Assembly (NCBI GenBank): GCA_024689485.1 | Contig: JAILDK010000098.1 | Span: forward strand, 1-49,452 | Source: Fibrobacter sp. | Lineage (GTDB): Bacteria > Fibrobacterota > Fibrobacteria > Fibrobacterales > Fibrobacteraceae | Length of the DNA stretch: 49,452 nucleotides | Direction of reading: 5' to 3' | Shown: positions 17,618 to 20,831 of the stretch, piece by piece | Layout of the letters: every line of letters begins with the position of its first letter | Numbering within the stretch: the first letter of the stretch is position 1 | Made by a program: the position numbers and the translations under genes | Notes under the pieces: model-generated | Told to the model about the DNA's origin: nothing | What the model saw: only the letters and a program-made list of their open reading frames with translations | The model's database searches: none

Positions 17618-18973
17618 CTATTCCTCGCTTTCAGACGCGTCGTTCGCGGTCGTCGGAGGGGTGTAGGTAATGCCCTGGTACTTTAAAGTATCTCCCGGAG
17701 GCAGATTCACCCGAACGCTCTTGACGTAATCTTCAGGGTCAAATTCGCCCGACTTGAGATTGCGGATCACCAGTTCGTCGCCCGAATAGAAGACGAGATC
17801 CTGGTAGTCGGACGGCAAATTCACCATGGTGATGGAGTTGCAAGAGCTGACCGTTTTAAAGTTACTGGTTCCGCGGAAGCCGACTCGGATGCTGTACGCC
17901 CAGCAGAGGGTGTCCTGCGTTGCCGTCGAAGCGCCTTCCGAAACGAGGAAGACCGAGCCGAGGAAGTTCGAAGCTTCTGCAAGGGTCACCGTCGGAATTT
18001 GGAGCGTGTCTTTTGCTTCTTCCAAATCGTCCTTGTCGATGTAGTCCGAAAGGCCCGTGAGAACGCCGCCCGCAGAATCCTTGCTGCGGAATTCCACGCG
18101 GAAGCTGTCGTCAATCAAGTCAAAAGCCGGAGCGGCCACACGCCAGACGCCCATCGAATCCGTGACCGCCTGCGTCACAAAAGCGGCGCTGTCCAAAACG
18201 CCAAAGCCGTAAAGATCGGTCACCACGTGGACCGAAACGCCCTTCGCCGGTTTACCGTTTGCGCTCTTGACGACACCCTGCAAAAGTTTCACCTGGGTCG
18301 GTTCACTTTCCGAAGCGTCCCAACGAAGCTTGCCGACATCCAAAGTATCCCCTGCGGAAACCGTCACCGAGAGCTTGCGAATAATCGTCGAATCCGCATA
18401 GCCCGAAGCGCGGAGCTTTGTAATCACGCTCGAATCCGCCGGGAGGATCGTCAAAGAGTAGGAGCCTTCCGGAAGAGCGATCTTAAAGGAATCCGGAGCA
18501 AAGACGTCGATCGAGAAAGTCGTCGAATCGAGCTGCACCATAAAGTGCGAGCCGGCGAGGAACGAGGCGTTGCCCGTATATTCGAGTTCGCCCACAACCA
18601 AGGCCGATTCCTGGAGCTTCACGCGCAGGCTGTCTTCACTCTTCGCAGAAACGCGGCGGATGATCTGCGTTTCGGAAAGGGTCGAATCGTTTGAATTGTA
18701 GCGGAATTCGAAATTCACCGTATCGGCCAAGGTGCTGTCGAAAGCAAAGGCACCGAACGAATCCGTTTCCGTTTCAATAAAGTCTACCGTAGAAGCGGTA
18801 CGGGCCACGACCTGACGCACGGAAATGCCGCATCTTGCCGAGCCATCGGCAAGGGTCACCGTACCGGCGATCGTGTTTTCCGTATCGGTCGCAGTTCCTG
18901 CAACCTTGTCGGAGCATGCCCAAAAAGTCAAAGCGCAAAGAAGGAGCGCGAAGATGCGCAGACTAAGCTTCAT
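17618..18973 (-). CDS. Lipoprotein with carboxypeptidase-regulatory-like repeats
   Basis: Starting at 18973 (GGAG upstream) gives a 451-aa protein with a lipoprotein signal MKLSLRIFALLLCALTFWAC. An earlier in-frame start adds eight residues and is less likely. The mature part has at least two beta-sandwich segments of the carboxypeptidase regulatory type: TIAGTVTLADGSARCGISV..TDSFGAFAF (~30-85) and LLQGVVKSANGKPAKGVSV..TDSMGVWRV (~225-285). Function is unknown; these folds usually mediate adhesion or scaffold roles on the cell surface. The start overlaps the end of the TIGR02147 regulator gene by 11 nt, so the two are translationally coupled. Confidence 0.82.
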   Translation of the reverse strand: MKLSLRIFALLLCALTFWACSDKVAGTATDTENTIAGTVTLADGSARCGISVRQVVARTASTVDFIETETDSFGAFAFDSTLADTVNFEFRYNSNDSTLSETQIIRRVSAKSEDSLRVKLQESALVVGELEYTGNASFLAGSHFMVQLDSTTFSIDVFAPDSFKIALPEGSYSLTILPADSSVITKLRASGYADSTIIRKLSVTVSAGDTLDVGKLRWDASESEPTQVKLLQGVVKSANGKPAKGVSVHVVTDLYGFGVLDSAAFVTQAVTDSMGVWRVAAPAFDLIDDSFRVEFRSKDSAGGVLTGLSDYIDKDDLEEAKDTLQIPTVTLAEASNFLGSVFLVSEGASTATQDTLCWAYSIRVGFRGTSNFKTVSSCNSITMVNLPSDYQDLVFYSGDELVIRNLKSGEFDPEDYVKSVRVNLPPGDTLKYQGITYTPPTTANDASESEE

Positions 18974-19838
18974 CGTCGGAATCTCCTTCGGTTTCATCCA
19001 TTTCTACCTCGTTCTTCGGGCGAGCTTCAAGCTCCTTCGAAAGCGGGAAGAATTGGATATTCAGTTCACAGATCATCGACTCATGATCGTCCGAGCGGAC
19101 GATGTCGACCACTTCCTTACGAAATGTATCAATTTTATGGATGATGCGTTCGAGTCCTTGCGGGGAAACGCTCATCGTGGTGCACGAAACGTTGCGGCGT
19201 TCGGTGCTGTAATGGTCCACGGCAGCCTTGCCGAGATCCATCATTTTCTTTTGGAAGTCGTGAACGATAAACGGAGGGATTTCCCGGCCGCTGGTAATCG
19301 TCTTGTTGACGGAACGCCAGAAACCGTTTTCCTTTTCGATAAGGCCGAGGTTCGAAAGCAGTTTGATTGCCTGCTTCGCCTGCGGAACCGTAATGCGCGG
19401 GTTAAGGAACAGAGCGAGGTCCTGGTAGTTGTCCGAAACGTTCAAGACGGACAAAGCTTCGCGGACGGCGACGTAATACCATTCCTTATAATATTCTACC
19501 TGCTGACGGGAAAGCGCTTTAGTCGTGCGCGGAAGGAGGGCAGACATCTTTTCGAAGATGACCTGCTTCGATTCCGGGGTTTCCGCATGGGTAAAGTCCA
19601 CCATCAGGCTGAAGTAGCGGCCTTCCTTTTCGGAAAGTCCAAGCGCATGGATGAACTTGGGAACCATCTGCGGGGTCAAAGACTTGCGGCCCTTCACCAG
19701 ATCCAGATAGAATCCACTGGACGTGTAGCCGGCGCGCTTGGCAAAAGCGCGATAGGAGAAATACCGTTGCACGGACTTACGGTACTCGTAATAGTCCTGC
19801 AGGTACTTTCGATAATTGTAATAGGCAAACACGTTCAT
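18963..19838 (-). CDS. TIGR02147/DUF4423 family putative regulator
   Basis: The 291-aa protein fits the TIGR02147 family, first noted as a large paralogous group in Fibrobacter succinogenes. It opens MNVFAYYNYRKYLQDYYEYR, followed by a helix-turn-helix-like stretch (SYRAFAKRAGYTSSGFYLDLVKGRKSLT, ~28-55), GLSEKEGRYFSLMVDF, and a C-terminal DUF4423 region including ISVSPQGL-like MSVSPQGLERI. The family is presumed to bind DNA and control neighbouring genes; direct evidence is scarce. AAGG lies 6 nt upstream of the ATG. It is coupled to the downstream lipoprotein gene and faces a repeat-rich intergenic region. Confidence 0.85.
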   Translation of the reverse strand: MNVFAYYNYRKYLQDYYEYRKSVQRYFSYRAFAKRAGYTSSGFYLDLVKGRKSLTPQMVPKFIHALGLSEKEGRYFSLMVDFTHAETPESKQVIFEKMSALLPRTTKALSRQQVEYYKEWYYVAVREALSVLNVSDNYQDLALFLNPRITVPQAKQAIKLLSNLGLIEKENGFWRSVNKTITSGREIPPFIVHDFQKKMMDLGKAAVDHYSTERRNVSCTTMSVSPQGLERIIHKIDTFRKEVVDIVRSDDHESMICELNIQFFPLSKELEARPKNEVEMDETEGDSDDEA

Positions 19839-19871
19839 CGTGCCTTAAAGATATATTTTATCCCATTTTTT

Positions 19872-20000
19872 GGGAACACCTATTTTTGCAAACATTTTAT
19901 AAGCTTTTGGCGAAATTTCGCTAAAAGAACAATTTGGGAACACTTTTGGGAACAGCCCCACTACTCTTTGAGCAATTTTTTGTCTATTTTCAAGGAACAC
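19872..20000. promoter_or_regulatory. Four GGGAACAC-like direct repeats
   Basis: GGGAACAC occurs at 19872-19879 and 19936-19943, GGGAACAG at 19948-19955 and AGGAACAC at 19993-20000, all in the same orientation within 129 bp. They lie between the TIGR02147 regulator and the divergent hydrolase gene. Repeats of this kind are typical of regulator binding sites; the TIGR02147 protein is the obvious candidate. Confidence 0.5.
19904..19927. promoter_or_regulatory. 24-bp dyad centred on GCGAAATTTCGC
   Basis: A perfect 12-bp palindrome GCGAAATTTCGC (19910-19921) is flanked by CTTTT (19904-19908) and AAAAG (19923-19927), with one unpaired base on each side. It sits among the GGGAACAC repeats and looks like an operator for a dimeric protein. 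Confidence 0.5.
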
Positions 20001-20014
20001 CCAATCCCATCCCT

Positions 20015-20053
20015 AGAATCGCGATCTTCCAAAAAGGTCGCGATTCTTTTTTT
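20015..20053 (+). terminator. Terminator-like hairpin ahead of the hydrolase gene
   Basis: AGAATCGCGA (20015-20024) pairs with TCGCGATTCT (20038-20047), followed by a run of seven T. It reads as a plus-strand intrinsic terminator but lies 14 nt upstream of the gene at 20067 with no plus-strand gene before it. It could block antisense transcription from the left or act as a leader attenuator. Confidence 0.7.
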
Positions 20054-20066
20054 ATCTTGTAGCCCG

Positions 20067-20831
20067 ATGAACGCTATCAAGAACACCTTTTTTAAGATTT
20101 TGCGCCTGATCGGCATTTTCGCCCTGGTCTACGTTTGCCTTCTCCTTTACATGGCACTGTCGGAACGCCGCTTGGCGTTCCCCCGCGCAGAAATCGACGA
20201 CTCTTCCGAATCGATGCTCCGCGATGCTGCCGTTCTTTGCCACGCCGATAACGACAAAAAGCTTCAAGGCTGGATTTTGAACGATTCCCTGCCGACGACC
20301 GTGCTGTACTTTGCCGATGGCGGCGAAGACGCAGCGACCTTCCTCGTTAACGTAAAAAAGATCCCGGGCTTTCGATACGTCGCATTCAACTACCGCGGAT
20401 CCGCCGGGAGCGAAGGCACGCCGGGTGAAAAATATTACGCCTCGGATATTCAGGCGATGGTCGGTTGCGCCCATTCCGACGACATCATCTTCATCGGCCA
20501 CGGGACGGGATCGATCGCCGCGTACAACTCTTTGACGAGCGGTTTTGGGAAAGGAGCCATTCTAGTGGACCCATCCGAGAGTTTTAGTTCCGCTTTATCG
20601 GCACGTTACCGAATTTTCTTCCCCAAATTCCTGAGCCGTTCCCACGCCAAGATGATTTTTGACAAAAGAGAATCCATTCCGGCGACCGTGATTGCGGACG
20701 ATCCGCGGCGTGGTGAACTTGTACGTAATTTATTGAACAACCATTCTAAAAACTTCACTTTGGTCGAGCGCGAAGGCAAGTCTTTACTAGACGTACTGCA
20801 ATCCGAGCTTTTAAAAATGAAAACAAAGTAA
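20067..20831 (+). CDS. Membrane-anchored alpha/beta-hydrolase-fold protein lacking the Ser nucleophile
   Basis: The 254-aa protein has an N-terminal membrane anchor (~11-30) and an alpha/beta hydrolase fold: VLYFADGGEDAATFL (~79-93), FNYRGSAGSEG (~107-117), then IFIGHGTGSIAAYN (~141-154). The nucleophile elbow is G-H-G-T-G (144-148), so the usual serine is Gly146. A late strand ATVIADDPRRG (~206-216) is where the catalytic acid would be, and no clear catalytic His follows. It is probably a non-catalytic or altered member. The frame is open far upstream, but that part is antisense to the regulator gene and not real. A terminator hairpin lies just ahead. Confidence 0.75.
   Translation: MNAIKNTFFKILRLIGIFALVYVCLLLYMALSERRLAFPRAEIDDSSESMLRDAAVLCHADNDKKLQGWILNDSLPTTVLYFADGGEDAATFLVNVKKIPGFRYVAFNYRGSAGSEGTPGEKYYASDIQAMVGCAHSDDIIFIGHGTGSIAAYNSLTSGFGKGAILVDPSESFSSALSARYRIFFPKFLSRSHAKMIFDKRESIPATVIADDPRRGELVRNLLNNHSKNFTLVEREGKSLLDVLQSELLKMKTK

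Follow-up and report, generated by a model that had tools for sequence, protein, structure and literature searches.

What does a regulator of the TIGR02147 family read in the DNA next to its own gene, and which outputs does it control? This question is raised by a locus of Fibrobacter sp. (GenBank assembly GCA_024689485.1, contig JAILDK010000098.1), in which such a regulator gene is followed by a lipoprotein gene and is divergent from a gene on the + strand. The whole stretch of DNA that was analyzed, referred to as the window, comprises 49,452 nucleotides. An earlier note on this DNA described the locus as a regulator-lipoprotein module with a candidate operator array. The reading that is favored here, which we consider somewhat likely, is that of a divergent control region that has on one side the regulator and its translationally coupled lipoprotein and on the other a stand-alone small RNA of about 60 nt; the boxes would be bound by the regulator, and the RNA would act by base pairing. 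The features are listed in Table 1.

Table 1. Features of the regulator locus and their positions in the window.
Feature	Position	Strand	Remarks
Lipoprotein gene, translationally coupled	17618..18973	-	Lipobox, then VAGTATDTENTIAG; 11-nt overlap with the regulator gene
TIGR02147 regulator CDS	18963..19838	-	NCBIfam 341.9 bits; Pfam DUF4423 C-terminal domain 109.1 bits
Probable regulator -10, TATCTT	19848..19853	-	9 nt before ATG; mRNA probably leaderless
Box B1, GTGTTCCCAAAA	19868..19879	-	Covers the probable regulator -35, at about -38
Box B2, core GTTC (of GTTCTTTT)	19927..19930	-	11 bp from B3, spacing kept
Box B3, GTGTTCCCAAAT	19932..19943	-	Conserved as GTGTTC[CT]CAAA
Extra box B3', CTGTTCCCAAAA	19944..19955	-	12 bp from B3
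-10-like box TATTTT (inside TTTTTTGTCTATTTT)	19985..19990	+	Candidate small RNA promoter
Box B4, GGTGTTCC	19994..20001	-	Far end of the array, 5' end of the small RNA; invariant alignment core
Small-RNA-like unit	19994..20053	+	Arm 19994-20013, terminator stem-loop 20015-20047, T-run
Probable hydrolase-like gene -10, TATCTT	20053..20058	+	Overlaps the T-run by its last T; 8 nt before ATG
Alpha/beta-hydrolase-like gene	20067..20831	+	Pfam Abhydrolase_6 26.0 bits, slightly below the 26.3-bit cut-off

The regulator is a strong member of the TIGR02147/DUF4423 family, as it matches the NCBIfam model over positions 2-271 of 272 with 341.9 bits, for which the curated cut-off is 50 bits. Its N-terminal stretch shows a weak likeness to HTH_31 and HTH_3, below the Pfam cut-off (E 0.003-0.006). 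The predicted fold is a poor model (pLDDT 60) that gave no significant match in Foldseek, and the PDB and fold searches on the regulator were uninformative. Orthologues with 69-98% identity are found in the genus Fibrobacter and in named genomes, including Fibrobacter intestinalis ATCC 43854. The genome of the window contains 13 TIGR02147 genes, i.e., the regulator and 12 further members, and the TIGR02147 genes of six genomes of the genus fall into 12 orthogroups and one singleton. In the literature searched, no paper naming TIGR02147 was found, and DUF4423 was found only in a Bdellovibrio proteome table.

The 11-nt overlap of regulator and lipoprotein genes reported earlier holds when the lipoprotein starts at 18973; an alternative ATG at 18997 would extend it to 35 nt. 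Each of the 12 named orthologous loci has the lipoprotein gene directly downstream of the regulator, and the lipoprotein evolves faster (33-76% identity) than the regulator (69-98%). Among the orthologues, the sequence GTATDT.NT beside the acylated cysteine is kept. The lipoprotein is predicted to fold into a chain of beta-sandwich domains that are Ig-like or CNA-B-like, and this model locally resembles pilin and adhesin stalks in Foldseek, which makes an exposed surface role plausible. In most TIGR02147 orthogroups of the six genomes, too, a lipoprotein gene lies downstream of the regulator gene, with an overlap or only a few bases in between, the exceptions being groups 6 and 9, which mostly have none, and group 12, which has none at all. 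Many of these lipoproteins carry an AG..ETxNxIAG-like motif just after the lipobox cysteine, a mature N-terminus common to otherwise different proteins.

The gap between the regulator and the + strand gene (19839-20066) is 228 nt long, and the four same-direction repeats reported in it were confirmed: GGAACA occurs on its + strand at 19873, 19937, 19949 and 19994 and never on the other strand, while dinucleotide-shuffled versions of the gap contain 0.06 copies on average and reached four in 0 of 5000 shuffles. A fifth, weaker copy (AGAACA) adjoins the second repeat. Read on the strand of the regulator, the repeats have the sequence GTGTTCCCAAAA. Orthologues from several genera conserve them, and the upstream alignment shows invariant blocks within otherwise diverged DNA. 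Over 36 loci, 155 GTTC cores lie on the regulator strand and 11 on the opposite strand; nearly all of these loci have a GTTC 34-40 nt before the regulator start and a GTTC pair 11 bp apart. Beyond the nearest relatives, box B3' occurs only in some of the other genomes. Taken by itself, GGGAACAC is no rare sequence, with 4 copies in the window versus 1.1 expected, but for the 12-mer GTGTTCCCAAAA, 17 matches with at most one mismatch were found in the genome versus 4 for the reversed control. The genome matches are intergenic only at the three copies in this gap, which favors a local use, and the array looks local and autoregulatory. The reading as a candidate operator array is supported because the array is under strong selection and lies where an autoregulatory operator should be; two points change, in that the repeats are private to this paralogue and the terminator hairpin is the 3' end of a conserved small-RNA-like unit, which the earlier note missed. 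A 24-bp dyad around GCGAAATTTCGC is present in the gap as described before, but it is not kept in the upstream alignment of the orthologues, and it is therefore probably incidental and does not deserve the weight it was given.

As the earlier note proposed, the same repeats were looked for upstream of other TIGR02147 genes, and they were not found there. In the upstream alignments, most orthogroups have a conserved motif of their own, such as GTTGTAAATTTTTACAAC, TGGACAAAAAGTCCA, TTGCAAAATTCTTTGCAAA and TGTACTATAAA (loci L093-L152, six genomes), and the family members therefore appear to read different sequences. In the genome of the window, two near-identical TIGR02147 genes on short contigs (C47 and C25) each have a TGTACTAT array.

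At the -10 position of the regulator, TATCTT, TATATT or TATAAT is present in most orthologues, with the box ending 7-9 nt before the ATG, so the regulator mRNA is probably leaderless. In a relative from the same genus, -10-like boxes peak 5-10 nt before the ATG, and 38 of 40 have no Shine-Dalgarno sequence; leaderless mRNAs appear common in the genus (sampled stretches L258-L277 and the window). With the -10 placed this close to the ATG, box B1 would cover the -35.

At the other end of the array, the terminator hairpin noted before the opposite gene is real and strong and points along the + strand. It is preceded by the near-invariant, C-rich arm of 20 nt, GGAACACCCAATCCCATCC, and the unit folds 5.8 standard deviations below shuffled sequences (z -5.8). 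Covariation, with both partners changed, is seen at 13 of 13 stem pairs, and 94.8% of the cells are paired versus 66% after shuffling; the alignment was fitted to the structure and these counts lean that way, although sliding the partners collapses them. RNAalifold gave no structure on the first alignment, in which the stems were misaligned; the covariance model R1, built from six well-aligned sequences, resolved them. The -10-like box before the arm is conserved as TATTTT, TATATT or TCTAAT, and no conserved -35 was found in the orthologues.

A regulator orthologue is present in 85 of 101 genomes, and R1 finds the unit adjacent to it in 81 of these, always divergent and 126-240 bp away, while none of the 16 genomes without an orthologue has a full-length match. 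The orthologues in G011, G015, G022 and G079 have no adjacent R1 match. At locus L049, an orthologue with boxes and terminator is accompanied by a diverged C-rich arm (CATACCCACCC), and R1 finds no match there. Opposing terminators occur at the orthogroup of the regulator in six of six genomes, and this is the only orthogroup of the family in which they are conserved; the others have isolated hits in the terminator scan, none of which is kept across a group. Rfam contains no match for the unit, the only hit being a chance match several hundred nucleotides away (E 0.88). The boxes and their spacing, the arm, the pairing of the terminator, the linkage and the gene overlap are all conserved, and the unit is read, from sequence comparison, as a stand-alone small RNA of about 60 nt paired with the regulator.

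According to the favored reading, the direct GTGTTCCCAAA repeats are most likely sites of cooperative binding by the regulator. From B1, over its own -35, it would repress or tune the leaderless regulator-lipoprotein transcript and so control the lipoprotein, and from B4, at the RNA start, it would control the RNA promoter, a suggestion that is prompted by the position of this box at the RNA 5' end. With B1 over one -35 and B4 at the start of the RNA, both the transcript and the RNA would respond to one regulator; that divergent promoters have one common array likewise suggests their joint control. The RNA most likely base-pairs through its C-rich arm, possibly at translation starts.

Several other explanations of the same conservation were considered. 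The arm may be a DNA element, i.e., an extension of the operator or a binding site for a second protein, with a hairpin that insulates the flanking genes and no functional RNA. The location of B4 inside the arm, by which the conservation of the arm is partly that of the operator, is in line with this, but in length and in conservation the arm surpasses every other box. It invariably comes with a terminator in which pairing persists despite turnover of the stem sequence, and it lies at the right distance from a -10-like box, which leaves this explanation unlikely. The boxes could also be an operator for another transcription factor than the adjacent TIGR02147 protein, as the HTH call of the regulator is weak. 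This is rather improbable, since most TIGR02147 orthogroups have a conserved upstream motif of their own and the only intergenic copies of the box in the genome of the window are next to this regulator.

Finally, the unit could be a terminated leader (attenuator) of the hydrolase-like gene, which lies close behind the terminator in most genomes and at every one of the 24 loci inspected. However, three loci (L049, L052 and L054) lack this gene next to the regulator, and in L052 and L054 the RNA is kept. In the window, a -10-like box belonging to the gene itself precedes its ATG by 8 nt, a spacing that is the same in the nearest relatives. No alternative antiterminator pairing was seen either, because turnover affects the sequence of the stem but not the arm. 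An attenuator is thus very improbable, and the hydrolase-like gene is probably not part of the module.

Returning to a base-pairing RNA, searches with 12-mers, 13-mers and 17-mers complementary to the arm gave several start-site matches in fibro-slime and GH30 genes of this genus. In the genome of the window, arm complements lie at the gene starts C78:19516, C75:312, C89:15455 and C118:1714, which belong to fibro-slime, fibro-slime-like and GH30 genes, among them a XynC-like one. Equally good pairing is shown by about 1% of 380 background gene starts, which scales to an estimated 20-25 per genome by chance. One orthologue set loses the complementary start site, and in three genomes of genus g2 the matches are mostly in coding sequences and the start-site pattern is not reproduced. 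Pairing with fibro-slime and GH30 starts, weakly above background and inconsistently conserved, is thus a weak lead. In the proteome of F. succinogenes grown on cellulose, fibro-slime proteins are up and most lipoproteins down (PMC6851124). Most regulator and lipoprotein starts pair with the arm no better than background, and a single lipoprotein start (L018) reaches the 5% tail; the lipoprotein starts of group 5 give raw pairing energies of -17 to -20 kcal/mol in six of six genomes. It is a doubtful extension of the model that the RNA, by pairing at the translation starts of fibro-slime, GH30 and GH9 genes, would give a TIGR02147 regulator post-transcriptional control over the secretome for cellulose adhesion and cell-wall degradation, and so couple the choice of surface lipoprotein to substrate attachment.

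The arrangement resembles known systems in which a regulator is accompanied by a divergently encoded small RNA, such as GcvA-GcvB, OxyR-OxyS and SgrR-SgrS. In these systems as well, a transcription factor gene adjoins a divergent small RNA with an intrinsic terminator, with control sites in between. Unlike in these pairs, the regulator here belongs to the uncharacterized TIGR02147 family and has a translationally coupled lipoprotein. The RNA, whose control by the regulator is putative, measures no more than about 60 nt and has no Rfam relative. RsaE and RoxS are examples of C-rich small RNAs with ribosome-binding sites as pairing partners. With these, the unit shares a short single-stranded C-rich arm before the terminator that is able to pair with G-rich start regions; no sequence relationship to the unit was found, and its targets here are candidates only.

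TIGR02147 is a large paralogous family in Fibrobacter for which no function was found in the literature searched. At this locus, a specific candidate DNA site can be assigned to one of its members, along with a coupled surface protein and, as a further output, a putative RNA, each of them conserved. A search of titles and abstracts found no small-RNA family for the Fibrobacteraceae, which are important rumen cellulose degraders, and the unit would be an early one to be described for them. As the regulator gene also overlaps that of a surface lipoprotein, the locus may be a testable switch for the surface of this gut bacterium.
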